Of a stretch of 64,000 bases of DNA, positions 19,301 to 35,342 are shown in pieces (the stretch's first letter is position 1; each line of letters opens with the position of its first letter). A program made the position numbers and the translations under genes. The notes under the pieces are model-generated. The model was not told where the DNA came from. It searched no databases and saw nothing but the letters and a program-made list of their open reading frames with translations. Source of the DNA: Flavobacteriaceae bacterium Ga0077528 (lineage in GTDB: Bacteria; Bacteroidota; Bacteroidia; Flavobacteriales; Flavobacteriaceae); assembly GCA_001464475.1 (NCBI GenBank), contig LNDX01000012.1:1-64000 (forward strand), given 5' to 3'.

Positions 19301-22175
19301 CAGTAACTGGTATTCTTGCTGATAAACATTCTGTTGTAAATTTCCAATTGTAGGCACCTAAATTAAAATTTCCATCAATACTATTACCGTCGATACTCGC
19401 CACAGATGAAGTATATGGATAGGCAGCATTTGTAGTATTCATCCTCAATCCTGAAGCTGGCAAAGTACTAAAATACAAATTATACATCCCTGGAATTAAA
19501 GTATAATTCATATTGATTTGTTGGAGTGTATTCCCTCCAGAAACCGTAGTTGTAAAATTAAAACTTGCAAGTGTAATATTAGATGAATTTCTTATCACCA
19601 ATTGACCTGATTGTCCAGATGCAATTGGAAAAATATCTACCGATTGTAAAGAGGTATTTGAATTAACTGTAAAATTTACAAAGCCTTGATAATTTTGAAG
19701 TCCTTTCACTCCCAATTGAGTGTTTGGATTGGATGGTCCTAACTTTGCTATTGCACCAAAAGCTCTAGCTTCTGCATAATAAGTTGTCGTTGCACTTATA
19801 GCTGGAGTAGTAAATGTGTTACCCGAGCCAACTTGAGCACCTCCAGATAAAGCGTCAAACCAACGAATTGCAGAACCTGTACTTGGATTAGCTACTAAAC
19901 TTGCAGTTCCATATCCACATCTCGTAACAGGAATAGTTGATACTACTGTAGGTGGTGAACACTCTGTATTGAAAGTTTCCTCCATCGACCAAATACTTTT
20001 ATCGGAACTTGAACAATTACCTCTTAACCAAACCCAATAACTTGTACTTGGATTTAATCCTGTAAGATTTAAAGTTGAAATACCTGCACCAACTGATCCA
20101 GTAGCAGTGGTAGCTATGGTTGGTGGCGTTGCTGTAGTTGAAAGAAAATATTCATACCCCAATGCTGGTGGAGTTGTAGAAGGAACCCAATTAAGAGTAA
20201 CAGTTGTAGCTGTAACAGCAGAAGATACAACCTCGGTAGGTTCAATACAAGATGGTGATAAAGTTACACTAATATCATCAATGGCAATATAAGTCTGATT
20301 GGCTATACTATATCCTCTGTATCCTATATAAAATACACCTGAACTAATTGGTGTAAAATCAATTTGAGTGGTTTCATAGAAACTATTATCAATTCCAGTT
20401 AGAGTAGTTAAAGTATTTGTCATACCTGCTACTGACTGGCTAGTACCATAATAAACAGCCAAATTCTCTGAATTAGAACTTGTATTTCCTGTATTATAAC
20501 TAAATTTTAATCGGTAAGAAACACCAGCTGTTAAATTCAAACCTGGCAGAAAAAACCAATCGTTCATATCACTTGTTATGTTTTTATCAATTTGAAATGA
20601 ACGAGGCGCTGATGCAAAATTAACCGTTTGTGTTCTCCATTGATTAGTGTCTGCATTGATGTTTAAAACAGAAAAACATGTTGGAGCCGATCCAACTGGA
20701 GTAGAATCAAAATTTTGAACATAAGGAATAGTATAAAAACCGCATGTTGTAGCAACCGTTATGGTATTACTATTAACAATACATCCAGGTCCCAAAGCTC
20801 TTACTCTGTAATAGTAGGTTGTAAATGGCAACAAACCTGATATATTAAGTGAGGTTGTTGCTGAACTTAAAATTAAATTGTTATAACCTGGCAGAAATGT
20901 CGCAAAAGTATTGCTAGTTGACACATCAATAGCATATCCTGTGGCACCAGCTACAGCTGACCAATTTGCGGTAAAATCATTTCCTCCTACTGCTGTTGCA
21001 GCCAAAGCTGTTGTAGACTGAAAACAAGTTGTTGCTGAACCAAAAAGTGGATTTGTCAAATTATAAAATGGTCCGCCAGCACATTTTTCATTATAAGAAA
21101 TAACCCAATAATAATAAGTTGTACCTGAAGTTAATCCTGTTTGATTGAACGTAAATAAATTAGAATTAGCGACAACTCTATAAACTGGAGCTGTTCCATA
21201 ATTAAATCCTACAGAATATATATTTCTATTTATGAAAGTTGCTGCAGTTGGTGGAGTATTTACTGTACTTCTAACAATTAAGTACTTTGATGGTGCTGGT
21301 GTTGCAGCAGTAAAAGTATTACCTACAAAAGAGTTGCTTGTAATACTTGTTCCTCCAATAACTAAATTTGTTGGTTGGCTTGGTGGAGTAACACATGGTG
21401 GACCAGGCACATATAAATATTGAAATCCAAAAGGAGGATAAGCCGATGAATTGGTAATAAGTGTATGTGAATTTACCGTCCCATTTATGGTTGCGCCAGT
21501 TACATCCCAAAGCTGACTACTTCCTTGAAAACGATTAAAAACATTTCCTTGAGAGATATCATTATTTTGCCCTCTCAAACCTACTTGAACATTTACCGTT
21601 AATGCAGAAAGAGATGTATCGCAATTACCATATGATAAAAGTATTTCATTAGAAGTTTCTGATAAGCGAATTTGAAAATCAAAATCACCAACAGCTGTCT
21701 TTCTATTTGCATTAGTCCATTGTACTACAAAAGTTCTATTGGGCGCAGTTCCCTCAGTTGCATAAACTATATTTGCTGGAGTAGTTGCACTTGAAATTAA
21801 ATCGGTACCTAAGGCACAAACAACACCTCCACTAGTTGCTCCATTATATGGTGTATTGTCTGACAAAGGTACATAATTACCTGATGCTGGTGCAACTACT
21901 CCAAAAGTAATAAAACCATTTGGGCTAATATAACATTGAGTAAAATTGTTGCTATCATAAGCAAAAGTAAAACCAAGTGGTACTTGAACTGACGCTTGAT
22001 TATCCCATGGTGCTACGAAAGCATTTGTTGTAGCTCCAGATAATGGAACATATCCACTAACTGATTGTGTAAGAGTATAAGCATTTACTTGTGCTTGAGT
22101 TTTGTTTATTCCTAACAGAACCAACATCAAAACAGCAAGAACAGTAATAAATGTAGTTTTTTTTCTATGCAACAT
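16332..22175 (-). CDS. T9SS-secreted multi-domain adhesin, 1947 residues
   Basis: The signal peptide runs through about residue 29 (core ITVLAVLMLVLLGI, ending NKTQAQ). The N-terminal beta module (SPNGFITFG) is homologous to the one in the gene at 9254. It is followed by three or more fibronectin III domains, a MAM-like jelly roll, Ig-like or HYR-like domains (VTRCGYGTASL, LTICENETTSL) and a cleaved-adhesin-like module (about residues 1080-1250). The long C-terminal module starts at about 1410 (TWNGTTWSNGPP, DYTYWSSPIA, GNPYPSAVN). The final 80 residues carry the T9SS type A sorting signal (IKVFDIRGRLL, terminal KKYVN). From the N-terminal module to the sorting domain it parallels the 9254 protein, so the two are paralogues. 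Probable role is surface adhesion. No terminator was found after the stop. Confidence 0.9.
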   Translation of the reverse strand: MLHRKKTTFITVLAVLMLVLLGINKTQAQVNAYTLTQSVSGYVPLSGATTNAFVAPWDNQASVQVPLGFTFAYDSNNFTQCYISPNGFITFGVVAPASGNYVPLSDNTPYNGATSGGVVCALGTDLISSATTPANIVYATEGTAPNRTFVVQWTNANRKTAVGDFDFQIRLSETSNEILLSYGNCDTSLSALTVNVQVGLRGQNNDISQGNVFNRFQGSSQLWDVTGATINGTVNSHTLITNSSAYPPFGFQYLYVPGPPCVTPPSQPTNLVIGGTSITSNSFVGNTFTAATPAPSKYLIVRSTVNTPPTAATFINRNIYSVGFNYGTAPVYRVVANSNLFTFNQTGLTSGTTYYYWVISYNEKCAGGPFYNLTNPLFGSATTCFQSTTALAATAVGGNDFTANWSAVAGATGYAIDVSTSNTFATFLPGYNNLILSSATTSLNISGLLPFTTYYYRVRALGPGCIVNSNTITVATTCGFYTIPYVQNFDSTPVGSAPTCFSVLNINADTNQWRTQTVNFASAPRSFQIDKNITSDMNDWFFLPGLNLTAGVSYRLKFSYNTGNTSSNSENLAVYYGTSQSVAGMTNTLTTLTGIDNSFYETTQIDFTPISSGVFYIGYRGYSIANQTYIAIDDISVTLSPSCIEPTEVVSSAVTATTVTLNWVPSTTPPALGYEYFLSTTATPPTIATTATGSVGAGISTLNLTGLNPSTSYWVWLRGNCSSSDKSIWSMEETFNTECSPPTVVSTIPVTRCGYGTASLVANPSTGSAIRWFDALSGGAQVGSGNTFTTPAISATTTYYAEARAFGAIAKLGPSNPNTQLGVKGLQNYQGFVNFTVNSNTSLQSVDIFPIASGQSGQLVIRNSSNITLASFNFTTTVSGGNTLQQINMNYTLIPGMYNLYFSTLPASGLRMNTTNAAYPYTSSVASIDGNSIDGNFNLGAYNWKFTTECLSARIPVTATVTTPPALSLSTTSLTICENETTSLVTISGAGAYDSLVWSPATGVSGNVVSGFTFNPTVTTTYLLLANQTSGSLCGNLASITINVNQAPPIVSILPVNPSICEGTIQPLFGSTSIATPAILINENFNSPTNNWVVANTSTGGDTNASQWTLRPSGYNYINGFGWNATFNSNDNSQFYLANSDSQSGTAGTVTRTTLTSPSFNLAGFTSANLSFFHYINAIAFDKFEVQITSNNGATWTNLTSYTVLQGGPSAFSNVVVDLVAYLGMPDLKIRFNYESNWGYCWALDNVRVSGTLSAALTWMPITDLYSDAAATIPYVAGTPASVVYSKPTNTITYTATLTGSNGCLRVVTNTLTVSPPTVAGVLSSDQSICTGVPASNLVLTGSVGSILRWEYANDAAFTSGVTTIANTTTILTPAQMGTFTTIRYFRAVIRSGTVCSQLYSNVVFVAFYNTTWNGTTWSNGPPNATTRAIFAGNYTSTGDLFACSVRINSGVVTFNTNHSLVVTNDVVVAAGSLIFNNNASLVQVNDASINTGNITYRRSAMPMRRFDYTYWSSPIANQVLSTFSPLTPTDKFFVFNPTIANWSNVASGSSMTVGKGYLVRAPITYNLVTTTVYNGSFVGVPNNGIVASPVLVSASDFNLIGNPYPSAVNADLFLSDPLNVGVVDATIYFWTHNTPIAAGQYTSNDYAIYNYLGGTGTSSAPNTGVNSSVPNGKIASGQGFFIKALSNGSATFSNAMRIVGNNDQFFRMQSPLNPSTSQTVVSEKHRVWLDIVDQQGSYKQTLVGYATDATMGIDRGYDGEYLNVGNPVALYSLANSTTTLSIQGRSLPFSDLDEVPLGFYAATTGSFTINLYDFDGLFLNQNIYLKDKALDIIHDLKQSSYTFRADAGTFNERFVLVYRNQALNINSFSFNANDVIVYKPNQDLHVDAGKTIMKSIKVFDIRGRLLLEKEAINANKTSFNVGSTNQVLLIEITTSEGVKATKKYVN

Positions 22176-22416
22176 CAGTGTTTATGTGACTTTTTAATAT
22201 TTGCGCTATTTTTTTTTTAAAGCTAACTATTTGAATATAAATAGAATTAGATAATTTAATCGTCTAAAATAGTATATTTTCTTTCACTGAAAATACAACA
22301 AAGCAAGTATTCGACTAGAAGCAATTATAATCGACGAAATGCATATTTTTAATAAAAAGAGCCATTAAAATTTATTGCCTTTTTATATAAAAATAAGTAA
22401 TTTAGTGAAAAAAAAT

Positions 22417-23169
22417 ATGGCCAAAGTTATTGCTCCATTTAAAATTGTAGGAACATTAGACGATTTAGTTTTTTATATAGACCAAGAAAAGGAGAACCGT
22501 GTAAAAACTAAAGGTAAAACAGGTGTTTCATCTGAAGAATTTAAACGAAATCCCATATTCAATAAGGTAAAAAACCATGGCAAAGAGTTTGGAAGATGCA
22601 CTAAAAAAGCGCAAAGCTTTAGATTCGTAGCGCATTATTTTAACAACAGAGCTAAAGATGGAAGTTTTGCCGGACGCTCTAATAGATTAATGCTTGATGT
22701 AATGAATGAAGATGAAACAAGTGTGCACGGAGAAAGAACCGTTGAAATTGGTATGCAATCTAATGACGCAAAAGAATATTTTATTGGTTTTGAAGGAAAT
22801 AAACTTAGAACTCTAAAAAAAGTACTTAATGCAAAATGGCATTGGAACGAAGAAACTAGTGAATTTTCAATAGATAAATTTGTACCCAAAAAGAATATCG
22901 ATTGGCCAGAAGAAGCAGAATTTTTACACATTGCAATAGCAAGAGCTAATTGGAATTATGTTGACAATAATTTCAGCACAGAGTATAGCGAAGAATTAAT
23001 ATTTGAAAAAGAAGAAGAAGAAAGCAACTTAGTAATTAAAACAAATATACCAAAAGGAAACCACCTTCAACTAACTTTCTTATTTATAGGGTTCTCATTA
23101 CAATATAGAAAAAAATTGAAAGAATTGAAACGAATAAACAATACGGTTTCCATAATTTGGAGTAAATAA
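22417..23169 (+). CDS. Conserved-looking hypothetical protein, 250 residues
   Basis: I do not know its function. The frame opens at 22375, but Met15 at 22417 (MAKVIAPFKIVGTLDDLVFY) is the better start, because the preceding 14 codons are AT-rich and non-descript. The protein is soluble, has no signal peptide and is rich in Lys, Asn and Phe. Visible segments are an N-terminal basic motif (RVKTKGKTGVSSEEFKRNP), a stretch RAKDGSFAGRSNRLML and an acidic EKEEEE near residue 205. From memory, related proteins with this N-terminus are common and often multi-copy in Flavobacteriaceae. It lies alone on the plus strand, convergent with the polysaccharide operon, with only 73 bp between the two stops. 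Confidence 0.7.
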   Translation: MAKVIAPFKIVGTLDDLVFYIDQEKENRVKTKGKTGVSSEEFKRNPIFNKVKNHGKEFGRCTKKAQSFRFVAHYFNNRAKDGSFAGRSNRLMLDVMNEDETSVHGERTVEIGMQSNDAKEYFIGFEGNKLRTLKKVLNAKWHWNEETSEFSIDKFVPKKNIDWPEEAEFLHIAIARANWNYVDNNFSTEYSEELIFEKEEEESNLVIKTNIPKGNHLQLTFLFIGFSLQYRKKLKELKRINNTVSIIWSK

Positions 23170-23242: not shown

Positions 23243-23875
23243 TTATCTTACAAATCGATGAGGATTTCCAACATACAAACCTTGTTGTGTAATATTTTGA
23301 ATTACAACCGTTCCGCCACCAAGTTGGGTATTAGAAACAATCGAGACATTATCAATAATAGTACTATTGATTCCGAGAATACACAATTCTTCCACTTTAA
23401 TAAAACCGGCTAAAGCCACTCTTGGTGACAAGAAACAATGTGCTCCAACTACAGTATCATGAGCAACCGTACAAGATATATTAAGAATAGTATTTTGTTT
23501 TATTATGGCATGAGCATCAATACAACAAGAAGGATAAATAACACATCCTTTTTCTACGGTAGCAGTTTCATCAACCCAAGAGGTAGAATGAATTATTTTT
23601 CCGAAAGGAATGATCTCTGAAAAACGTTCAAACAATTGTTTTCTTACTGCTAGGTGCTTATAACCAATACCTATTAATAGTTCATCAAAGGATTGCTTTG
23701 CATATTCTTTTTCAACAGCATCAACATTGCCTAGTATAGGAAAACCATTAGCATGTGTTTCATTAGAAAAATCATCAAAAAAAACCACATTTTCATAATG
23801 CTTATCAGACAATGCATAATGTGCAATTTGTTGTCCCAAATGACCGGAACCGATAATGGCTAATGTTTTTTTCAT
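23243..23875 (-). CDS. NeuD/PglD-like sugar O- or N-acyltransferase
   Basis: Predicted acetyl- or acyltransferase acting on a nucleotide sugar or lipid-linked sugar. The N-terminal part (MKKTLAIIGSGHLGQQIAHY) is a PglD_N-type nucleotide-binding fold. From about residue 90 the sequence is a left-handed beta helix of hexapeptide repeats (GCVIYPSCCIDAHAIIKQNT), with the VAHDTVVGAHC segment carrying the likely catalytic His. It ends in GLYVGNP, as usual in this family, and its 210 residues fit the family length. Its ATG overlaps the stop of the glycosyltransferase gene as TAATG, so the two are translationally coupled. It is the last gene of the operon. Substrate unknown. Confidence 0.85.
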   Translation of the reverse strand: MKKTLAIIGSGHLGQQIAHYALSDKHYENVVFFDDFSNETHANGFPILGNVDAVEKEYAKQSFDELLIGIGYKHLAVRKQLFERFSEIIPFGKIIHSTSWVDETATVEKGCVIYPSCCIDAHAIIKQNTILNISCTVAHDTVVGAHCFLSPRVALAGFIKVEELCILGINSTIIDNVSIVSNTQLGGGTVVIQNITQQGLYVGNPHRFVR

Positions 23876-24798
23876 TAAAGATTAGTTTTATCTTTTATTG
23901 AATATAGTGGTCGTCGTTTAACCTCTTTATATATACGGCCAATGTATAAAGAAATGATTCCCATAAAGAATAATTGCAATCCAAAAACAACAATTATTGA
24001 AGCTATTATTGAAGGCCAACCTGCTTGAAAATTTATAAAAAACAGCTTTAGTAATACGAGAATAATTAAACCTAACAAACCAAATCCTACAAGTGACATT
24101 CCAAACTTTAGGGTCATTTTTACTGGAAGTTCTGAAAAGTCAAAAATAGCGTCAAATGCCAATTGCATTTTACGTTTAAAATTAAATTTAGAGGTTCCAG
24201 CAAATCGTTCAATTTGCCCAATTCCTATTGTTGTCCAATGCTTGGATATGTCTATAAATATTCCTTCTATAAAACGATTAGTTTCATTGTACTTTAGAAA
24301 TTCATCTGCAAAATCTCTATTAAACATTCGCATTACAGCAATACCTTTTGGAATATTTAATCCGGTAAATTTATTTAAGGTACCCAAAAATATTTTAGAA
24401 AACAATCTATTAATGAAAGAATCTCTTTTCTCTTTTCTTATTCCCCAAACCAAATCATATCCTTTTTCAATTTCTGCTAAAAATCTAGGAATTTCAATAG
24501 GTGGATCTTGTAAATATGGATCCATATACAATAAATAATCTCCTGTAGCGTGAGCAATAGCAGCAGAAACAGCATCTGGTTTTCCGTGATTATGTGAAAA
24601 AGCAATTAATTTAATTCGAGCATCTAACTTTGCTTGTTCTTTAATAATTTCAACTGTTTTATCCTTGCTTCCATCATCTACAAAAACATATTCATAGATA
24701 ATTGGTAAACTGTCCAACACAATTTTAGTCTCTTTTAAAAACTGAAGAATAACCTCTTCTTCATAATAAACTGGAACAACTAAAGACAGTTTCTTCAT
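23875..24798 (-). CDS. Family 2 glycosyltransferase with two C-terminal membrane segments
   Basis: Related to GtrB, ArnC and dolichol-phosphate sugar synthases, which move a sugar from a nucleotide donor to polyprenyl phosphate. The GT-A domain has VVPVYYEEE at the N-terminus, the nucleotide-binding FVDDGSKDKT at 39-48 and a recognisable LQDPP at 96-100. The usual metal-binding Asp-x-Asp just before it reads Asp93-Pro-Tyr95, so the second Asp is replaced by Tyr. SHNHGK replaces the more usual SRNFGK. Two membrane helices lie at about 231-251 and 262-288, followed by a basic RRPLYS tail. The ATG directly abuts the stop of the HAD gene. It may be an active enzyme with altered metal binding or substrate. 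Confidence 0.87.
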   Translation of the reverse strand: MKKLSLVVPVYYEEEVILQFLKETKIVLDSLPIIYEYVFVDDGSKDKTVEIIKEQAKLDARIKLIAFSHNHGKPDAVSAAIAHATGDYLLYMDPYLQDPPIEIPRFLAEIEKGYDLVWGIRKEKRDSFINRLFSKIFLGTLNKFTGLNIPKGIAVMRMFNRDFADEFLKYNETNRFIEGIFIDISKHWTTIGIGQIERFAGTSKFNFKRKMQLAFDAIFDFSELPVKMTLKFGMSLVGFGLLGLIILVLLKLFFINFQAGWPSIIASIIVVFGLQLFFMGIISLYIGRIYKEVKRRPLYSIKDKTNL

Positions 24799-25434
24799 TT
24801 AGATATGGTTTGTTATTTCTGCTAAATTAGAAATTTTATTTTTCAAATTGGGATAAAAATTATCTCTATCGATGACTAAAACATTAAATCCCAATTTTTC
24901 GGCAGGTTCTAAATCAAGTTTTATTGAATCTCCAATGTACAAAACTTCGTTCGCTTTAAACGGAATTCTATCCAACGCTTTTTGATAAAATTCTAAACTT
25001 GGCTTAGCTACTCCAAGTTCTTCCGAAACAAAAACATCCTGAAAAACAGGTCCGAAAAAGGAATGCAGTTTATCTTTTAAAGTAGTATTAAAATTAGAAA
25101 TCACACCAAGTGGAAGATTTAACTCTGATAAAATTTGAGTATCTTCAAAGGCTTCCCATGGCAAATAAGTGCAATTTTTGAAAATAGAATTCACTAAGGT
25201 ATCTTGAGGAACTATTCCAAGCAAATACAATAATTCTGAATTAAATTTTTTGTAAAAACCCTCATCTGTCCTATCTGGAAAATGAATAACTTCCGACAAT
25301 AATTTATGCTTGGCCTTAATATCTTCTAGCGAAACATCATGTCCAAAATCTTCAATTGTTTTTTGAATATTGTTATATAAGGATGGTTTTCCTAATAAAG
25401 TTCCAGCAACATCAAAGAAAATATATTTAATCAT
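24799..25434 (-). CDS. HAD-superfamily hydrolase-like protein
   Basis: Haloacid-dehalogenase fold with a C1-type cap. Motif I is FFDVAGTLL with nucleophile Asp8, motif II is VISNF (Ser113), motif III is Lys144 in GVAKPS, and motif IV is IGDSIKLD (Asp169, Asp174). The second Asp of the phosphatase signature DxDGT is Ala10. That Asp normally serves as acid/base in phosphatases and is also absent in dehalogenase-type members. In this context a role on a sugar phosphate or a lipid-linked intermediate is likely but not shown. It starts two bases after the ATP-grasp stop, in the tightly coupled tail of the operon. Confidence 0.82.
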   Translation of the reverse strand: MIKYIFFDVAGTLLGKPSLYNNIQKTIEDFGHDVSLEDIKAKHKLLSEVIHFPDRTDEGFYKKFNSELLYLLGIVPQDTLVNSIFKNCTYLPWEAFEDTQILSELNLPLGVISNFNTTLKDKLHSFFGPVFQDVFVSEELGVAKPSLEFYQKALDRIPFKANEVLYIGDSIKLDLEPAEKLGFNVLVIDRDNFYPNLKNKISNLAEITNHI

Positions 25435-25436
25435 AT

Positions 25437-26414
25437 TTAATAAATAATATGTGATACACTAGTGTTGTTTAACTTATCAAAATCGTTAGAATTTGGATAA
25501 ACAACATCCATCAGAATCCTTGTGGCTATTCCTTCAATTGGTTTTGGTTCATCAGGAACTTCATTTAATAAATATTCTTGAATGGCATATTTAACATCTT
25601 GAAAACCCAAATTATGACGAATTGAATTGGTTCCTGAGATTCTACAATTAATTTCAAATGGAACAATTGAGTCTTCATCTGTAACAATACTTTGAATATT
25701 AAAACTTCCAACCAAACCACCAAGAGCAATCATCTTTTCTGCAATGATTTTCATCTCATCGTCATAATTAAAAACTACTTTAGATTCGGTTGTTGTTCCA
25801 TTCGTTAAAGAACGTTCCATTGTAAACAATCCATGAAGATTTCCTTGTTTGTTTACATAAACTGCAGTTGTAATTTCGATTCCTTTAGACAAAGGTTGAA
25901 TCATATATCCTTGCGGCAACTGAGTTGGATTTTCAGGATTAAATAAAATTCCTCTAGAACCTCTTCCCTCTCTTGGCTTTGCAATAATTTCTTTTTCAGA
26001 AAAATCATATTCTGCAGCTATCCAAGATTTGGCAAAAGGAATACCATTGGAAGACAAATATTGATAAGTTTCATATTTATCCAAATAAATTTTGGCTGTT
26101 TTTGCTTCACTTGCAACAACAATGGCATTTAGCTTTTCAGCATTTTCTGAAAGATAATAAACCTCATAATCGGTAGATGGTATTACTAAATCAACTTTTT
26201 CAGTTTGAATTATATTTTGAAGTGTTGGAATAAAACTTTCATCATAAGAATAAGGCACTTGGTAAGAAACATCACACAAATGATTTCCTGGTGTGAAACC
26301 TGCAATATCAGTTCCAATTAATCGAATAGGTAAATTTAAAGACCGAATATTCCTTAAGATACCTTGCCCAACGTTTCCTCCTATTCCTGTTACTAAAACT
26401 GATTTTTTTTCCAT
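25437..26414 (-). CDS. ATP-grasp ligase, CarB-like
   Basis: The N-terminal pre-ATP-grasp domain begins LVTGIGGNVGQGILR, as in the carbamoyl-phosphate-synthase-large-subunit-like proteins of polysaccharide loci. The ATP-grasp core shows IIAKPREGRGSRG (Lys146 and the glycine loop at 148-155) and the metal-binding segment VPFEINCRISGTN (Glu254, Asn256). Such enzymes join a carboxylate to an amine or similar nucleophile through an acyl phosphate. Here it probably modifies a sugar or attaches an amino acid, but the substrate cannot be read from sequence. Its 5' end overlaps the SDR gene by 22 bp, and HAD and GT2 genes follow with almost no gap, which suggests one pathway. Confidence 0.85.
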   Translation of the reverse strand: MEKKSVLVTGIGGNVGQGILRNIRSLNLPIRLIGTDIAGFTPGNHLCDVSYQVPYSYDESFIPTLQNIIQTEKVDLVIPSTDYEVYYLSENAEKLNAIVVASEAKTAKIYLDKYETYQYLSSNGIPFAKSWIAAEYDFSEKEIIAKPREGRGSRGILFNPENPTQLPQGYMIQPLSKGIEITTAVYVNKQGNLHGLFTMERSLTNGTTTESKVVFNYDDEMKIIAEKMIALGGLVGSFNIQSIVTDEDSIVPFEINCRISGTNSIRHNLGFQDVKYAIQEYLLNEVPDEPKPIEGIATRILMDVVYPNSNDFDKLNNTSVSHIIY

Positions 26415-27247
26415 TGAATATAGTTGAAAATAATTTCTTTAAAATTGGTTTGCGGTTGCCATCCAAGTAATTCACAAGTCTTATTATTGTTATAATGAAA
26501 TGATGAAGCATTGTCTTCGTTAACAAACTCAATTGTAGCCGAGGTATATTCTGAGATAATTTTAGCCAAATCAATATTAGAATATTCCTCTTTACTCACT
26601 CCCAAAAGTACTTTATTTTTTACAGAGTCAAAATTTTGAATAGCTAAAATAATATATTGACAAGCATCTTCAACATAAATATAATTTTGCTCACGTTCTC
26701 CTTTACCCCAAACTGTAATAACTTGATTAATAATAGCTTGTTGAATATAATTGGGAATGATAGTATTTTCTTTCATTCCGACACCATAAAGAGACGAAAG
26801 TCTTATTATTGTTGCATTAGACGTTTCTAAAACTATTTGTTCTGCAAGATATTTGGAAGTTGCGTATTGCGATTGCGGATTAATAGGAGACTCTTCATGA
26901 ATTACTTCAGTTTTTAAATCATACACAGAACATGTGGATATATAAACTATCCTTGAAGAAGAAAACTTTTTAATTAATTGTTCAGTAAGTGAAACATTAA
27001 CTTCAAAAAGTTGCTCTTTATCCAAACTAATTTGTCCAGATGAAACAGCTGCATGACAAAGAATAAGAAAATCGGGTTGAATAGAAATAGCCTCTAAATC
27101 TGTTGATGAAAACACTTGAATATCGTTCCATATCTCTGTTTTTCTTCCAATTCCATAAACTATAAAATCGTCTTTCAACAAACTAAATAAATGACTTGCT
27201 AAAAATCCTTTTATACCTGATATTAGAATTGTTTTTTTCAAATTCAT
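26393..27247 (-). CDS. NAD-dependent epimerase/dehydratase (extended SDR)
   Basis: Nucleotide-sugar short-chain dehydrogenase of 284 residues. The Rossmann motif is SGIKGFLASHL, where the third Gly of GxxGxxG is Ala17. The active site is complete: Ser/Thr in YISTCSVY (about 104-105) and Tyr128-x3-Lys132 in YATSKYLAE. Proteins like this act as 4-epimerases, 4-reductases or dehydratases on NDP-sugars. Because RfbB lies just upstream, a role in turning the 4-keto-6-deoxy product into the final deoxysugar is plausible. The 52-bp gap before it and the 22-bp overlap after it mark it as the head of the coupled five-gene tail. Confidence 0.83.
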   Translation of the reverse strand: MNLKKTILISGIKGFLASHLFSLLKDDFIVYGIGRKTEIWNDIQVFSSTDLEAISIQPDFLILCHAAVSSGQISLDKEQLFEVNVSLTEQLIKKFSSSRIVYISTCSVYDLKTEVIHEESPINPQSQYATSKYLAEQIVLETSNATIIRLSSLYGVGMKENTIIPNYIQQAIINQVITVWGKGEREQNYIYVEDACQYIILAIQNFDSVKNKVLLGVSKEEYSNIDLAKIISEYTSATIEFVNEDNASSFHYNNNKTCELLGWQPQTNFKEIIFNYIQWKKNQF

Positions 27248-27299: not shown

Positions 27300-28346
<1,047 letters not shown>

Positions 28347-28347
28347 A

Positions 28348-29628
28348 TTATAATTTACCATCAATTGAACATTTCAAAACTCCTTTTACATCATAAACAA
28401 CAGAGTTCGGGTTTTTAAATTGTTCTAAGTCTATATTTAAAAATTCGTTATGAGCAACAGCTAAAACTATGGCATCATATTTATCAGTAGGTATTGTTTC
28501 CGTTGTTACTAATCCATATTCATGTTTTACCTCACTTGGATTAGCCCATGGATCGTAAATGGATACTTCTATTCCGTAATCTTGTAATGATTTGATGACA
28601 TCAACTATTTTAGTATTTCTCACATCAGGGCAATTTTCTTTAAAAGTAATTCCCAACATCAGTAACTTAGAGTGATTTACAGGAATTCGCTTTTTTATCA
28701 TCAACTTCACAATTCGAGAAGCAACATATTCTCCCATACTATCATTAAGTCGTCTTCCTGCCAAAATTATTTCGGGATGATAACCTGCTTCTTGCGCTTT
28801 TTGAGCTAAATAATAAGGATCTACACCGATACAATGTCCACCAACTAAACCAGGCTTGAAATTCAAGAAATTCCATTTTGTACCAGCTGCTTCAAGAACG
28901 GCTTGGGTATCAATATCAAGAATATTAAAAATTTTAGCCAACTCATTTACAAAAGCAATATTGATGTCTCTTTGAGAATTCTCAATTACCTTGGCCGCTT
29001 CAGCAACTTTTATTGAAGGAGCTAAATGTGTTCCTGCAGTAATAACCGATTTATAAATTTCGTTAACTTTTATACCTATTTCTGGAGTTGAACCGGCGGT
29101 AATTTTCAATATCTTATCAACGGTATGTTCTTTATCTCCTGGATTAATTCGTTCTGGAGAATAGCCTGCGAAGAAATCAACATTAAATTTCAATCCGCTA
29201 ACACGTTCTAAAACAGGAACACATTCTTCTTCTGTAAGCCCAGGATAAACTGTAGATTCATAAATTACAATATCTCCTTGTTTAAGAACTTTACCTACTG
29301 TTTCGCTTGATTTATATAAAGGAGTTAAATCTGGTCGATTGTTTTTATCAACTGGCGTTGGTACGGTAATTATATAGTAATTACAATCTTTAATATCTTC
29401 TAAATTTGTTGTACAAAACAAACCTACTTTGCTTAAAGGTTTTTCTATAAGTACGGATTGTAATAATTCTTTTTCAACCTCAAGAGTAAAATCGTTACCT
29501 TTATTAAGTTCTGATACTCTATTTTGATTTATGTCAAATCCTACTACAGGATATTTGGTCGCAAACAATCTTGCTAGCGGCAATCCAACATATCCTAAAC
29601 CAATCACACCTATTTTTTTATCCATCAA
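28348..29628 (-). CDS. UDP-N-acetylhexosamine 6-dehydrogenase (TviB/WbpO-like)
   Basis: Member of the UDP-glucose/GDP-mannose dehydrogenase family that oxidises UDP-GlcNAc or UDP-GalNAc twice to the uronic acid, using NAD. It has an N-terminal Rossmann motif [11 protein letters not shown], the SPER motif (about 157-160), catalytic Cys266 in [11 protein letters not shown], and a C-terminal UDP-binding domain with [13 protein letters not shown]. At 426 residues it resembles TviB and WbpO more than UDP-glucose dehydrogenase. Together with the epimerase at 31055 it would give UDP-GalNAcA, as in Vi antigen synthesis. The operon neighbour upstream is a second, different UDP-sugar dehydrogenase 23 bp away. 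Confidence 0.9.
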
Positions 29629-29651
29629 AAAGTGGTTTATACAATTAAAAA

Positions 29652-31043
29652 TTATGAACCAATTTCTTGGTAAATAAAACCTATTTCTTTAATTTTATTT
29701 GCATCTAATAAATTTCTACCATCAAAAACAAAAGCTGGCTTTTGCATACTATCGTAGATTTTTTGCCAATCATAAGTTTTGAATTCATCCCATTCTGTCA
29801 ATACTGCGATAGCATGAGAATTGGCACAAGCTTCATATACATCTTTGAAAGACGTTACATGCTTTCTATTTTGCTCGTCAGTTCGTGTCTCAAGATAATT
29901 CAAATCGGAAATTACTTGTTTATAATCAACTTTAGGATCATAAACAGCAATTTTTGCTTGCTCATTAATCAAATCATCAGCAACATAAATAGCTGCTGAT
30001 TCACGAGTATCATTTGTGTCTTTCTTAAATGCCCATCCTAAAAATGCAATTTTTTTATCGGCAATGGTATTGTATAAAGTACTTACTATATTTTTAGAAA
30101 ATCTTCTTTTTTGGTGATCGTTCATGATAATAACTTGTTCCCAATAATCGGCAACTTCATTCAATCCGAAAGATTTAGAAATATAAACCAAATTCAAAAT
30201 ATCTTTTTGAAAACAAGAACCTCCAAATCCAACAGAAGCTTTTAAGAATTTTGGTCCAATTCTACTATCCATTCCAATAGCTCTGGCTACTTCATTTACG
30301 TTAGCACCAGTTTTCTCACAAAGTTCAGACATCGCATTTATAGATGAAACTCGTTGTGCTAAAAAAGCATTAGCTGTTAATTTAGACAACTCTGAAGACC
30401 AAACATTTGTAGTTAAAATTCTTTCTTTTGGAACCCAATTAGCGTAAACTTCAACTAAAGATTGAATAGCTCTTTGACCTTCTTCTGTTGTGTCACCACC
30501 AATAAGCACACGGTCTGGACTCAATAAATCTTCAACTGCTGTTCCCTCTGCTAAAAATTCTGGATTGGACAATATTTGAAATTGCACTCCATTACCTGTA
30601 TTATCTAAAATACTTTTAATAGCCTCAGCAGTTCTTACTGGTAAAGTTGATTTTTCAACAACAATTTTATCAGTTTTTGAAACTCTAGCAATTTGTCTTG
30701 CGCAAAGTTCAATATACTTTAAATCGGCCGCCATACCTTTACCAGAACCATAAGTTTTGGTAGGTGTATTTACCGAAATAAATATGATTTGAGCTTCTTC
30801 AATTGCTTTATCAACTTCTGTTGAGAAGAAAAGATTTTTTCCTCTTGAGTGTGCAACAATTTCTCCAAGGCCTGGTTCATAGACAGGAATATTGTCAACA
30901 TTTTCATCATTCCATCTTGCAATTCGCTCTTCATTTAAATCAACAACAGTGACTTTAATATGTGGACATTTTTGTGCTATAACTGCCATTGTTGGTCCAC
31001 CAACATAACCTGCTCCGATGCAGCAAATATTTGTTATTTTCAT
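29652..31043 (-). CDS. ugd: UDP-glucose 6-dehydrogenase
   Basis: Oxidises UDP-glucose to UDP-glucuronate with two NAD. The protein is of the longer eukaryote-like type (463 residues). It has [14 protein letters not shown] at the N-terminus, VYEPGL (about 54-59), [11 protein letters not shown], catalytic Cys277 in [10 protein letters not shown], and [14 protein letters not shown] in the C-terminal domain. It supplies an acidic precursor for the polysaccharide. It is separated by 11 bp from the epimerase gene upstream, so it is surely in the same operon. Confidence 0.93.
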
Positions 31044-31054
31044 TCTATTCTATT

Positions 31055-32035
31055 TTATTTTAAATTTTCCCAATACCATTCCACTGCTTCTTTAAGTCCC
31101 TGTGAAAAGGAATATTTTGGATTATAATTTAGTAATCGTTTCGCTTTTTCTATACTTGCCAAAGAGTGAGGTATATCTCCTACTCTATTAGCACCATAAA
31201 CAATTGATACTTCTGAAATTGAAGCATCGTGTTTAGATAAATTTTCTTTCAATAAATTAACCATCTCATTAAGAGTTACTCTATCACCAAATGCTGTATT
31301 ATAAACAGTATTAAGTGCCTCTTTATTTTTAGTATTCATTGCCAATTCATTCATTTGAATCACATTATCAATGTAGGTGAAATCTCTAGAATAGGTTCCA
31401 TCACCATTAATCACTGGACTTTCATGACGCATAAATTGCATAACAAATTTTGGAATAACCGCAGCATAAGCTCCGTTAGGATCTTGACGTCTTCCAAAGA
31501 CATTAAAATACCTCAATCCTATTGTTTCTAACCCATAGGTTTTACTAAACACGTCAGAATATAATTCATTTACATATTTAGTAATTGCATAAGGTGAAAG
31601 CGGTTTTCCAATTACCTCTTCTACTTTGGGTAAAGCCTCTGAATCTCCGTATGTTGAAGAACTTGCTGCATAAACAAATCTCTTAACTCCATTATCACGA
31701 GAAGCTACTAGCATATTCAAAAAACCAGAAATATTAACATCACTACTATTGATAGGATCTTGAATAGACCTAGGAACCGAACCTAAAGCTGCATGATGAA
31801 GAACAAAATCTTTATTTTTAGTAGCTTCTAAACAGGTTTCTAAATCTCGAATATCTCCTTCAATTAAATCAAATTTTTCATCACATAACAAATGCTCGAT
31901 ATTATATCGATGTCCGGTTGCAAAATTATCTAAACAAGTTACAAAGTAACCTTTGTTGATAAAATAATCGCATAAATTAGACCCTATAAATCCAGCACCG
32001 CCAGTGATCAATATTTTTTGAATAGAATTATCCAT
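31055..32035 (-). CDS. UDP-N-acetylglucosamine 4-epimerase (WbpP/TviC-like)
   Basis: Extended SDR that interconverts UDP-GlcNAc and UDP-GalNAc (or their uronates). The Rossmann motif is ITGGAGFIGSN, the active site AASSSTYGD with Ser126/127, and Tyr149-x3-Lys153 lies in YAITKYVNE. RYFNVFGRRQDPNGAYAAV is characteristic of the WbpP/TviC group. Its length of 326 is close to the family norm. Its ATG overlaps the stop of the Wzc gene as TAATG, so it is translationally coupled to the export machinery. It is the natural partner of the TviB/WbpO-like dehydrogenase at 28348. Confidence 0.88.
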   Translation of the reverse strand: MDNSIQKILITGGAGFIGSNLCDYFINKGYFVTCLDNFATGHRYNIEHLLCDEKFDLIEGDIRDLETCLEATKNKDFVLHHAALGSVPRSIQDPINSSDVNISGFLNMLVASRDNGVKRFVYAASSSTYGDSEALPKVEEVIGKPLSPYAITKYVNELYSDVFSKTYGLETIGLRYFNVFGRRQDPNGAYAAVIPKFVMQFMRHESPVINGDGTYSRDFTYIDNVIQMNELAMNTKNKEALNTVYNTAFGDRVTLNEMVNLLKENLSKHDASISEVSIVYGANRVGDIPHSLASIEKAKRLLNYNPKYSFSQGLKEAVEWYWENLK

Positions 32036-34497
32036 TATCTATTTTTCTTTTGAAAAATACGTTTAAACCATTTCACAAATAGATTTCTAGATTCTTCATC
32101 TTCATGGTAACCATTTGAATAAGCTCCGTACCCATATCCATAACCGTATCCATATCCAGCACCATATTTAGCTTTATTTTCATAACCATTTAATACGATG
32201 CTCACATTATTTAATTCACCTCTTGATACTCTATTATTTAATAGATTAATCATTTCTTTTTTAGTAAAATTTTGTCGCATGACATATAAAGTTACGTCGG
32301 CATATGTTGCTAACTCAACAGCATCTGTAACTAAACCTACAGGTGGTGTATCTAAAATAATGTAGTCGTATTTATCTTTAAGTTCATTTATAAGACGTTT
32401 CATGGTATCACCCATAATTAGCTCTGATGGATTTGGTGGAACTGGTCCAGATGAAATAAAATCTAGATAAGGTATTTTAGTGTTTTTAGTTACTTCATCA
32501 AGTGTGTTTTGTTCAATTAAATAATTTACTACTCCAATATCATTTTTTACGTTAAAGTCATCAAAAATCTTTGGTTTTCTTAAATCAAGACCTACTATAA
32601 CTGTTTTCTTTTCACTCATTGCAAAAACTGTTGCAATGTTTATAGAGCAAAATGTTTTTCCTTCACCACTGACCGACGAGGTTAACATTAATGTCTTGGA
32701 ACCTGAAACTTTTTGTTTTTTGTACAAAAACTGTAATGAAGAACGAATAGCTCTAAATGACTCTGAAAGTGCCGATTTTGGTTTGTCAAAAACGGCCAAA
32801 TTAGAATCAGTGTGTTTTACTCCAATAACTCCAATTAATGGAATATTTGTGTTACTAGAAATATCATCTGTATTTTGAACAGCGCTGTTAATGAAAAATA
32901 TTAAAAAAACTATTATTAAAGGAATTAAAAAACCTAAAAAAATTGCTATAACATAGTTAACACTTGTTCTTGGTCCAATTAAACCGCCACCAATATCTTT
33001 TGGTGGATCAATAAATTGTATATCTGATAGATTTGCCGCTTTAACAATTTGTGCTTCACTTCGCTTTTGAAGATAGGTTTGATAAATTTCATTACTCAAA
33101 TCATATTTTCTCATGATTTTAAGATACTCTTGTTTGTCTTCTGGAAGTGTAGTTAACTTATTTTCTGCGACAGATATCTTACTTCTAACTTGAGAAGATT
33201 CGTATTGAATTGCAGACTTCGCAGCCATTATATTTTCAAGTAATACCTTTTTGACAGAAGAAATTTCACTATCTATTTTATCATACATCACTTGACTTTT
33301 CACATAATCACTCATTTCTGCTCTTCGCACAGATAAGTCAATTAAAGCGGAAACATTTGTAATAATATTAGGATCATCAATTCCAGCGACCGATGGTGCT
33401 GGTAACTTTGAATAATCTGTTGAATTTTTTAGATAATTACTTAATGTGTTGTAATAATTTATTTTTCTATTAATTGCATCATTTGTTCTGTCTAAATCCA
33501 AAATTTGGCTATGAAATGTATCACCGCCGCTTTCTATTTGCGTAACATTTTTATTTCTACTAAAATCCTTAAGTTCAGCAGTATTCTGTCGCAAATCACC
33601 TTCCATCTTTTGTAGAGTAGTATCAATAAACTTGATAGTATTTTCTGCAAATAAATTTTTACTATCTAGCTGTCTTTTGATTAAAACTTTTACAGTCTCA
33701 TTTAAGTAATCTACAATTCTGTATTTATTTGTTCCATCTAATGAAAGTTTAATGATTGATGGTGCTTTTTCTTCTATACCAATTTTTACATTTCTATATC
33801 GTGAAACAATTTGATCTAGACTATTAAAAATTATGATGTATTCCTGACCTACATAATTATTTTCTGCTTTAACTAAATTTAAAGATAAATTAAGAAAGGG
33901 TAAATTTATATTTTGTCCTACTTTAAAGCGTTGAACAAAATCACCACTTCGATATTGGATTGTACCAGCTATGCTTGAAGAATAATTTATAACACTAACT
34001 GCATTTGATAAAGACTTGATAGAAACTTCATATTCATATGGTGAAATGAACTTTATATTTATGGGTGTTTTATATATTTGATTTTTATTTTTATCAATCT
34101 TTACTACAAAAGGAGTTTTTCCATAAACGTCCTCAGTGAAATATTTCTGCTCCTGTAAATAATCTATATAAAACTGTAATTTATCAACAACAAACTCATT
34201 ATGAGATCGGGATTTAAGTGTGGTTGCAATATTTTGCACCTCATCTGAAGTTCCACCCCAATTAAATATTAAACTTGTATTTGATGTAAATAGTGGGTTA
34301 TCTTGCTCTTTAATTGCAATAGTAGTATCTAAAGAGTAGATTTTTTGCTTTCTAATATTAATTTGATGAGCAATTGTTAAACACACTATTAAGCCAAATA
34401 AAAACCATTTCCAATAGCTGGCGGTCTTGATTAAAAAGCCTTTAAAATCAAAGCTGTTTTGGTTCTCAAAAAAAGAAAAATCTTTAACGTCTAACAT
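32035..34497 (-). CDS. Wzc-like polysaccharide co-polymerase and tyrosine autokinase
   Basis: Inner-membrane protein controlling polymer length and export. It has TM1 at about 30-47 (WKWFLFGLIVCLTIAHQI), a large periplasmic Wzz domain with coiled-coil stretches, a GNVR-like segment before TM2 (about 512-535), then a cytoplasmic BY-kinase. The kinase shows Walker A SSVSGEGKT (about 603-611), Walker A' VIVGLDLRKP and Walker B IILDTPP (about 712-718). The tail at about 778-797 is a Tyr-Gly cluster (YGAGYGYGYGYGYG) that should be the autophosphorylation site. Cycles of phosphorylation are known to regulate assembly in this family. It lies 11 bp from the Wza-like gene. Confidence 0.93.
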   Translation of the reverse strand: MLDVKDFSFFENQNSFDFKGFLIKTASYWKWFLFGLIVCLTIAHQINIRKQKIYSLDTTIAIKEQDNPLFTSNTSLIFNWGGTSDEVQNIATTLKSRSHNEFVVDKLQFYIDYLQEQKYFTEDVYGKTPFVVKIDKNKNQIYKTPINIKFISPYEYEVSIKSLSNAVSVINYSSSIAGTIQYRSGDFVQRFKVGQNINLPFLNLSLNLVKAENNYVGQEYIIIFNSLDQIVSRYRNVKIGIEEKAPSIIKLSLDGTNKYRIVDYLNETVKVLIKRQLDSKNLFAENTIKFIDTTLQKMEGDLRQNTAELKDFSRNKNVTQIESGGDTFHSQILDLDRTNDAINRKINYYNTLSNYLKNSTDYSKLPAPSVAGIDDPNIITNVSALIDLSVRRAEMSDYVKSQVMYDKIDSEISSVKKVLLENIMAAKSAIQYESSQVRSKISVAENKLTTLPEDKQEYLKIMRKYDLSNEIYQTYLQKRSEAQIVKAANLSDIQFIDPPKDIGGGLIGPRTSVNYVIAIFLGFLIPLIIVFLIFFINSAVQNTDDISSNTNIPLIGVIGVKHTDSNLAVFDKPKSALSESFRAIRSSLQFLYKKQKVSGSKTLMLTSSVSGEGKTFCSINIATVFAMSEKKTVIVGLDLRKPKIFDDFNVKNDIGVVNYLIEQNTLDEVTKNTKIPYLDFISSGPVPPNPSELIMGDTMKRLINELKDKYDYIILDTPPVGLVTDAVELATYADVTLYVMRQNFTKKEMINLLNNRVSRGELNNVSIVLNGYENKAKYGAGYGYGYGYGYGAYSNGYHEDEESRNLFVKWFKRIFQKKNR

Positions 34498-34508
34498 TGA
34501 CTTGAATA

Positions 34509-35291
34509 TTAATTTCTAAGTATCAAAAAAGTTGTTGTAGCAAGTGTTAATAGAGTAAAAATTGTCCCCAATGATTCAACTCCAGTTTTTCCTGTTCCCC
34601 AAGTTTTTTGTTTTAATGGTTTTACGTACACGTAATCATTAGGTTGTAAATAATACCCTGGTAATTGAACCGCTCTACTATCGGTTAAATCTAAACTAAA
34701 TGTCTCTGCTCCTTGCGGAAACTGCCTAATTACCTTAACATCTTTTCTATCGCCAGTAATTGAAATATCTCCAGAGTTAGCAATTGCCTCAAGAATATTT
34801 ACTCTTTCTTGATACAAAATTTTTGTACCAGGATTAGCAACTTCACCGTTGATTGTATACCTAAATCCGGCTAACTTAACACTTACAAAGATTCCAGCTT
34901 CTTTTTTAAAGTGATCTTGTAATAGTTTTTTTTCTATTATTTCTCTAACTTCTTCGATAGTAAAACCTAATATGTTCACCTCACCAAGAACTGGAACTCT
35001 AATATTACCATGATCGTTTATGGTATAACCATTAAAATAAAGGGTTTCTGTTGTTTGATTTAACTGTGAAGTAGAAGTATTAAAAATCTCTACTAATTTT
35101 GGATCTAAAGCCTTAATATTAATGCTAATCACATCATTAACCTGCAAGCGATATGGTTTTGAATTAACAACATTTATAGTTGGAATTGGCGAATTATCTT
35201 TTTTCTGTAAATAAATTAAATCTTTTGTGGGAACACAAGATGTAAACATAATTCCCGAGAAAAAAAGTATATAGAGTATTCTGTAGTTCAT
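34509..35291 (-). CDS. Wza-like polysaccharide export outer-membrane lipoprotein
   Basis: First gene of the polysaccharide operon. The frame extends to 35315, but that ATG lies inside the -7 box. The start at 35291 gives a clean lipoprotein signal (MNYRILYILFFSGIMFTSC) with lipidated Cys19. The following sequence has the Poly_export domain (YRLQVNDVISINI), then SLBB-type regions (GEVNILGFTIEEVREII, YTINGEVANPGT), and ends in a hydrophobic C-terminal helix (about 240-258, TLLTLATTTFLILRN), as in other Wza proteins where the helix crosses the outer membrane. Acts with Wzc as the export channel. Confidence 0.9.
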   Translation of the reverse strand: MNYRILYILFFSGIMFTSCVPTKDLIYLQKKDNSPIPTINVVNSKPYRLQVNDVISINIKALDPKLVEIFNTSTSQLNQTTETLYFNGYTINDHGNIRVPVLGEVNILGFTIEEVREIIEKKLLQDHFKKEAGIFVSVKLAGFRYTINGEVANPGTKILYQERVNILEAIANSGDISITGDRKDVKVIRQFPQGAETFSLDLTDSRAVQLPGYYLQPNDYVYVKPLKQKTWGTGKTGVESLGTIFTLLTLATTTFLILRN

Positions 35292-35312
35292 TATTAAATA
35301 AAATTTAGCAAA

Positions 35313-35342
35313 CAAAGATAGTTTTTCAATTGTAAAAACAAA
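35313..35342 (-). promoter_or_regulatory. Putative promoter of the polysaccharide operon
   Basis: On the minus strand TTTG (35339-35342) and TATCTTTG (35313-35320) are separated by 18 nt and lie 21 nt upstream of the lipoprotein ATG at 35291. The match to the Bacteroidota consensus TTTG/TAnnTTTG is complete. It excludes the ATG at 35315 as a start. Confidence 0.6.

Follow-up and report, generated by a model that had tools for sequence, protein, structure and literature searches.

A conserved cassette with an ATP-grasp ligase in Flavobacteriaceae bacterium Ga0077528, possibly for acylation of a 4-amino sugar nucleotide

What does a compact row of bacterial genes make when it encodes an ATP-grasp ligase together with a phosphatase-like protein and a sugar acyltransferase? 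The question is raised by five genes at positions 23,243 to 27,247 of the window, by which we mean the first 64 kb (64,000 nucleotides) of a 103,555-base contig (LNDX01000012.1, here C12) in the 3.45 Mb genome (here G000) of Flavobacteriaceae bacterium Ga0077528 (GCA_001464475.1). In this study, we found that the cassette is real, conserved and coherent, and that it is a variant of known 4-amino sugar acylation for which a ligase precedent has been reported. Its core consists of a short-chain dehydrogenase/reductase (SDR), an ATP-grasp ligase, a haloacid dehalogenase (HAD)-family hydrolase, a NeuD-like acyltransferase and a WecE-type aminotransferase, with a family 2 glycosyltransferase (GT2) as an option. 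The product is probably an unusual acylated amino sugar for the surface coat. For the more specific reading of these sequences, that the block may encode most of a pathway to a dTDP-linked 4-acylamido-4,6-dideoxygalactose, via 4-amino-4,6-dideoxygalactose (Fuc4N) acylated by the ligase, we see about even chances.

On re-examination, the five open reading frames (ORFs), their coordinates and strand and all four junctions were exactly as given in a first-pass annotation made from the sequence alone, and Pfam and NCBIfam agree with its family labels:

26393..27247, minus strand: SDR, extended, epimerase/reductase type, 284 amino acids (aa); Pfam Epimerase 4e-30
25437..26414, minus strand: ATP-grasp ligase, PylC/CPSase-like (PRK12767-like), 325 aa; ATP-grasp_3 3e-11 and PylC-like_N
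24799..25434, minus strand: HAD-family hydrolase, REG-2-like, 211 aa; HAD Hydrolase 9e-14
23875..24798, minus strand: GT2, ArnC/PgfS-like polyprenyl-phosphate glycosyltransferase, 307 aa; Glycos_transf_2 1e-27
23243..23875, minus strand: NeuD/PglD/VioB-family left-handed beta-helix acyltransferase, 210 aa; TIGR03570

The SDR and ATP-grasp genes overlap by 22 bp, the ATP-grasp and HAD genes are 2 bp apart, HAD and GT2 abut (0 bp), and GT2 and NeuD share 1 bp in a TAATG overlap.

Is this arrangement kept elsewhere? With the ATP-grasp protein as query and E < 1e-60 as the threshold, the searches gave orthologues (49-93% identity) in 7 of 299 genomes of the family, 4 of 101 of the genus, 4 of 395 of the order and 3 of 395 of the phylum; these samples overlap, and each count includes the window's own genome. 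All 12 orthologue loci from other genomes (L018-L028 and L066) were examined. The order SDR, ATP-grasp, HAD, NeuD recurs in every one of them, and the SDR/ATP-grasp overlap is again 22 bp in nine, being 19 or 16 bp in the others (start codons set mechanically for the junction measurements). Because the four-gene order recurs in 12/12 loci and the 22 bp overlap in 9/12, the cassette is not a chance grouping. The GT2 gene lies between HAD and NeuD in six loci (L020-L023, L026 and L027), and a WecE-type aminotransferase gene lies directly 3' of NeuD in 11/12, L026 being the exception. Thus, of the five-gene grouping proposed at first, the part formed by SDR, ATP-grasp, HAD and NeuD stands, whereas the idea of a fixed five-gene unit has to be given up: GT2 is missing from six loci, and the steady further partner is the aminotransferase. 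L026, from a near relative, has the same five ORFs open at 89-94% identity to the window. Directly 5' of SDR, seven loci have a gene for an HTTM-like membrane protein, which is one gene further off in L028 (L019:6117-8012, with equivalents in L018, L020-L023, L028 and L066). The HTTM-like label rests on a Pfam match below the cut-off in L019, where a DCC1-like domain exceeds its cut-off; the latter domain is also present in the copy on contig C8 of the window genome.

The family search gave four further matches to the ATP-grasp protein at 31-32% identity (L029-L031, 18-19 kb each, and L011, 2.9 kb), and phmmer found no cassette SDR, HAD or WecE in these four. L029-L031 were considered as the same system and rejected, their 31% ATP-grasp relatives being adjoined by a metallophosphatase and not by SDR, HAD and NeuD. 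By eye, L030 has a FemAB-like protein, and L029 and L031 have OmpA-like ones.

Which sugar does the cassette serve? Judged from its gene content, this sugar is likely dTDP-4-amino-4,6-dideoxygalactose (dTDP-Fuc4N), because RmlB is adjacent, RmlA is present in the genome, and so is a WecE-type aminotransferase. RmlA is encoded on contig C1 (463.6 bits against a cut-off of 360.65). The aminotransferase gene is on contig C8 (G000:C8:116310-117404); it has no internal stop, and its product is 77% identical to the L027 copy, which resembles solved dTDP-4-amino-4,6-dideoxygalactose transaminases (E 4e-131). The aminotransferase was found in all 11 genomes searched, and G1019, a later find, has its copy in L066, where RmlB and an RmlA-like gene (a label read from the start of the sequence) are neighbors in one gene run. 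In the window, RmlB belongs to the same operon as the five genes, which are not free-standing and form the 3' end of a longer same-strand run starting at wza:

27300..28364, minus strand: RmlB, dTDP-glucose 4,6-dehydratase, directly upstream of SDR; TIGR01181 477.7 bits against a cut-off of 365.1
28348..32035, minus strand: TviB-like, Ugd-like and TviC-like nucleotide-sugar genes, same gene run; family profiles
32035..35315, minus strand: wzc and wza export genes, 5' end of the same gene run; domain matches, with wza at 34509-35315

In transcription order, this closely spaced run reads wza, wzc, TviC-like, Ugd-like, TviB-like, RmlB and the five cassette genes, with 52 bp between RmlB and the block.

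The TviB-, TviC- and Ugd-like genes of the operon, among them genes for enzymes like UDP-GlcNAc and UDP-Glc dehydrogenases, leave room for a different division of labor. WecE and NeuD suffice for an N-acetyl sugar, so the NeuD-like enzyme may make ordinary dTDP-Fuc4NAc, as in enterobacterial common antigen (ECA), while SDR, ATP-grasp and HAD make a separate component such as a uronic acid amide, the dehydrogenase-like enzymes supplying uronic acids as possible substrates for amidation by an ATP-grasp enzyme. We consider this unlikely. Homologues of Ugd or TviB occur near the cassette in only 3 of 11 other loci (L024, L025 and L026; L066 is outside this count), SDR, ATP-grasp and HAD keep company with NeuD and WecE rather than with uronic-acid genes, and ATP-grasp adjoins a DegT gene in Acetoanaerobium, Streptomyces and Sphingobium.

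The distance between the cassette and its presumed aminotransferase raises the further question of whether the block still functions in this strain. The ends of the block lack WecE and the HTTM-like gene, which adjoin each other on C8, and NeuD, the last gene of the operon, is followed by an ORF of opposite orientation, as might be expected of a remnant that decayed once it was separated from its aminotransferase. However, the five ORFs are open, L026 keeps the same five open at the high identity given above, and the aminotransferase on C8 is uninterrupted, which makes decay highly improbable. A similar separation is seen in the relative G724 (93% identical), with the cassette on C98 and the aminotransferase on C175. 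Near the C8 aminotransferase are a pair of ABC-2 transporter genes and numerous glycosyltransferase genes (labels read from sequence starts). WecE and the HTTM-like gene, which flank the block in most relatives, stand together there (L038:16274-18947), as if the intervening block had moved to C12. The C8 HTTM-like gene was suspected to be truncated, and this was rejected since the tblastn match extends over it from residue 16 onward. A reading frame of low complexity with YLLSIICYLLSAIYYLL repeats (L039:510-815) lies roughly 1 kb away from the end of C8.

What would the ligase attach to this sugar? The neighbors of more distant ATP-grasp relatives bear on this point. We compared 16 non-cassette loci, the four from the family search and 12 plasmid matches (L040, L041, L051-L053 and L076-L082) that were hand-picked from 101 and 103 records so that each genus gave one or two; their ATP-grasp proteins are about 23-35% identical to that of the window. 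A phosphatase-family gene lies within two genes of ATP-grasp in 13 of these 16 selected loci, a count that covers the surroundings of this ligase family alone. The phosphatase is calcineurin-like in L029-L031 and L040, of the PHP type in L041 and L053 (in L053 by record annotation only), a HAD protein in L051, L052, L076-L078 and L080, and a low-molecular-weight protein tyrosine phosphatase in L079. In L040, from Clostridia, genes for WecE, ATP-grasp, SDR, a calcineurin-like phosphatase in the place of HAD, a hexapeptide acyltransferase and an RmlA-like protein are consecutive. In a Streptomyces plasmid (L079:3465-7063), RfbB, ATP-grasp, a DegT aminotransferase and the tyrosine phosphatase stand in a row, and the last of these probably acts on a small molecule. 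That unrelated phosphatases interchange suggests that the ligase needs a dephosphorylation and not one particular protein, and it is because of this interchange that we propose a ligated acid carrying a phosphate. A comparison within the same transcriptional layout points to the position of the step: L076 from Phocaeicola reads phosphoglycosyl transferase, ATP-grasp, HAD, DegT and CapD-type dehydratase, whereas C8 of the window genome reads phosphoglycosyl transferase, PglD-type acetyltransferase, DegT and CapD-type dehydratase. Thus, ATP-grasp and HAD occupy the slot of the C4 N-acetyltransferase. In the Sinorhizobium loci (L041:1574-7919 and L053), the PHP phosphatase, ATP-grasp and SDR genes lie directly 3' of cysD, nodQ and cysQ, which serve sulfate activation.

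The sequences show which protein families are present, how their genes are ordered and conserved, and that an aminotransferase is encoded at another place in the genome; from this we infer every reaction, the order of the substrates and the identity of the acid as follows. RmlA and RmlB would give dTDP-4-keto-6-deoxyglucose, which the WecE-type aminotransferase from C8 would convert to dTDP-Fuc4N. The ATP-grasp ligase would then attach a small carboxylic acid, most likely a phosphorylated one such as 3-phosphoglycerate or O-phosphoserine, to the amine at C4, and HAD would take the phosphate off the ligated acid. The NeuD-like enzyme may acetylate a remaining free group, e.g. the amine of an added amino acid, and SDR may make a redox or epimer adjustment, to which we assign no place in the order. 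A ligase-modified sugar had also been suggested in the first-pass annotation, and the joint presence of an ATP-grasp ligase and an acyltransferase is compatible with such a product; the amino-acid nature of the added acid is a guess.

Do the proteins themselves fit these roles? Among the 12 cassette sequences aligned for each protein, the window included, the KPR and ExNxRxSG motifs of ATP-grasp are conserved, as are YxxxK of SDR and motifs II-IV of HAD (SNF, KP and GDSxxLD). The ATP-grasp protein scores 170.5 bits (E 4e-50) against the PRK12767 profile NF009402, below the cut-off of 218, and is a relative rather than a curated member. In the window copy only ATP-grasp and PylC-like domains were found and no sugar-transferase domain, so it is not fused to a phosphoglycosyl transferase. 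The NeuD-like protein exceeds the cut-off of TIGR03570 (165.3 against 160.8 bits) and also matches the structures 7txp (VioB) and 4ea7 (perosamine N-acetyltransferase). SDR is the most divergent member: of the 11 other copies aligned, the near-identical L026 has 89% identity and the rest have 29-46%; an SDR gene also adjoins ATP-grasp in L040, L041 and L053. A metabolite pathway of the Ter-operon type was considered for the ligase and rejected, as its ATPgrasp_Ter score of 23.7 bits is below the cut-off of 29.1 and its setting is a polysaccharide locus; this cut-off is exceeded by the relatives in L040 (41.7 bits) and L076 (53 bits), and a distant link therefore remains. AlphaFold2 models built from two-sequence alignments had mean pLDDT (predicted local distance difference test) values of 28.8 for ATP-grasp and 47.1 for HAD and were set aside. 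The ATP-grasp protein had no match at 1e-5 in a phage collection.

Several observations weigh against the proposed pathway. The aminotransferase of the window genome is outside the operon. The HAD proteins keep the nucleophilic Asp, and the second Asp of motif I is replaced by Ala or Ser in the window and in 12/12 orthologues (DxAGT in the window, and DxAGT, DxSGT or DxANT among the cassette HADs, i.e. D[VA][AS][GN]T in 13 copies), while all six HADs of the distant loci L051, L052, L076-L078 and L080 keep it. The cassette HAD may thus not be an ordinary phosphomonoesterase, and a phosphatase lacking the second Asp would have to draw on a different acid or act on a substrate whose leaving group is good. 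Among structures, a pilin glycosylation protein and PglD-type enzymes acting on UDP-sugars match the NeuD-like protein best, ahead of the dTDP-sugar enzyme VioB. If ATP-grasp occupies the C4 amine, the NeuD-like enzyme must act somewhere else; for both to work, the product would need a second acylation site, or the ligated acid would have to be an amino acid. SDR is left without a clear step. As for the 16 distant loci, they were chosen by us and are not all independent, three have no phosphatase near ATP-grasp (L011, of which there is only 2.9 kb, L081 and L082), and a DegT aminotransferase is within the examined stretch in only six (L040, L051, L076, L079, L080 and L082).

Part of these points would be met if the ligase placed a free amino acid on the C4 amine and the NeuD-like enzyme N-acetylated it, giving an N-acetyl-aminoacyl Fuc4N, with HAD having no part in the acyl arm and acting, e.g., on stray acyl phosphate or sugar phosphate. 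N-acetyl-aminoacyl amino sugars occur in O-antigens. Such a route makes the best use of a ligase and an acyltransferase that are both present in 12/12 loci, and a HAD protein missing the second Asp suits a good leaving group such as acyl phosphate. It leaves unexplained, however, why four unrelated types of phosphatase stand by ATP-grasp in 13 of the 16 distant loci, and we regard it as rather doubtful. The phosphorylated acid is the reading that we prefer.

How would the finished sugar reach the polymer? In the preferred pathway, GT2 and then a membrane glycosyltransferase would transfer it via polyprenyl-phosphate; where GT2 is absent, a soluble glycosyltransferase, for instance one of the WecF type, would do so directly. 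The lipid-carrier step of the first-pass annotation thus keeps some ground, in that an ArnC/PgfS-like GT2 fits polyprenyl-phosphate transfer in six of the 12 loci, and loses its general place, GT2 being optional and outside the core. By hydropathy, the window GT2 has two C-terminal hydrophobic segments, and its scores are below the curated cut-offs for PgfS (220 of 500 bits) and ArnC (167 of 529 bits). GT2 orthologues (59-100% identity) were found in 7/13 genomes, always within the cassette; the other six have GT2 relatives at 32-34% (four genomes) or nothing over the threshold (two). Four of the loci with GT2 (L020-L023) encode an additional protein of 405-424 aa with 6-9 hydrophobic segments, and L027 a homologue of 404 aa. 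The copies in L021-L023 and L027 are clearly alike, and that in L020 is weakly similar. This protein is like a GT-C glycosyltransferase by topology only, with no Pfam match over the cut-off in the four copies scanned (L020-L023). A search with the L021 protein gave no homologue in 9/13 genomes; these include G000 and G724, but also G193 with its weakly similar L020 copy, and a pair of GT2 and GT-C thus cannot be claimed for the window genome. Two of the six loci without GT2 (L019 and L028) have a gene for a WecF-type GT56 protein after WecE, and a third copy is in G193, which has GT2, at a distance of about 20 kb from its cassette. The L028 protein as query (1e-5) found no WecF-type protein in 10/13 genomes, G000 included.

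On the downstream side of the cassette, a plus-strand ORF (22375-23169, 264 aa, TTG start, no Pfam match) lies between NeuD and a 1947 aa ORF (16332-22175) whose N-terminus looks by eye like a signal peptide. L026 has the long ORF (426-6269) and lacks the 264 aa one, the equivalent gap there being 266 bases. Between 22000 and 36500, scans gave 62 promoter-like sites against 75.5 expected from shuffles and 6 terminator-like sites against 5.7 expected, with no terminator-like site directly 3' of NeuD.

How far is the cassette new? Its sugar supply is not: the dTDP-Fuc4NAc pathway of ECA (RmlAB, WecE, WecD and WecF) has RmlA, RmlB and a WecE-type aminotransferase in common with the window genome. 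The acyltransferase of ECA is of the WecD type, whereas the cassette has one of the NeuD/VioB type together with the additional ATP-grasp, HAD and SDR. In the VioA/VioB route to dTDP-Qui4NAc and among perosamine N-acetyltransferases, an acyltransferase of the NeuD/PglD/VioB family stands beside a 4-aminotransferase, as in the relatives of the cassette; these routes are not known to involve ATP-grasp or a phosphatase. With ArnC/PgfS/GtrB-type polyprenyl-phosphate GT2 proteins, which act with a membrane GT-C, the cassette GT2 shares the two C-terminal hydrophobic segments.

The nearest precedent is the branch of pilin O-glycosylation with PglB2 and its glyceramido sugar GATDH, likened here by description. 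The acetyltransferase half of Neisseria PglB is reported to lead to a diacetyl sugar, and PglB2, in which an ATP-grasp domain replaces the N-acetyltransferase, is held responsible for the 4-glyceramido sugar, with the glyceramido group on the C4 amine of a 4-amino sugar nucleotide (PMC11130364; PMC6959607, where this is "proposed"). PglB2 is accompanied by "ORF8" in Neisseria, and its locus also encodes an aminotransferase and a dehydratase. PglB2 has been described as one protein that combines ATP-grasp and phosphoglycosyl transferase, and it uses a UDP-trideoxy sugar; in contrast, the cassette has a free-standing ligase, probably acts on dTDP-Fuc4N, and adds acyltransferase, HAD and SDR. Since an ATP-grasp enzyme has thus been held responsible for acylation of a C4 amine, calling the cassette an undescribed system, as had been done at first, is too strong. 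A search of the openly licensed literature turned up no description of a cassette of ATP-grasp, HAD, NeuD and WecE, which is weak evidence of absence. In the Clostridium CAC2189 locus, which is a surface-sugar locus, an "ATP-grasp amino acyl ligase" is encoded together with aminosugar N-acetyltransferases and a HAD phosphatase (PMC4000134). It differs from the cassette in gene order and in its other sugar genes (SpsE and SpsF), the ligases being likened by description.

In a wider and more tentative proposal, which we hold possible and incline to doubt, ATP-grasp with an interchangeable phosphatase may be a general, unrecognized way of acylating 4-amino sugar nucleotides in bacteria and archaea, in which abundant phosphorylated metabolites such as 3-phosphoglycerate or phosphoserine would be ligated to the amine and then dephosphorylated by a phosphatase, for which at least four unrelated families would have been drawn on. 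The acyl groups that amino sugars carry determine the charge and the antigenic face of bacterial coats. If a ligase with a paired phosphatase proves common, sense could be made of many loci in which the annotation now places "HAD hydrolase" next to "carbamoyl phosphate synthase-like protein" or "ATP-grasp domain-containing protein", and, if the proposal is true, the glyceramido branch of Neisseria would gain a wider family with a testable donor.

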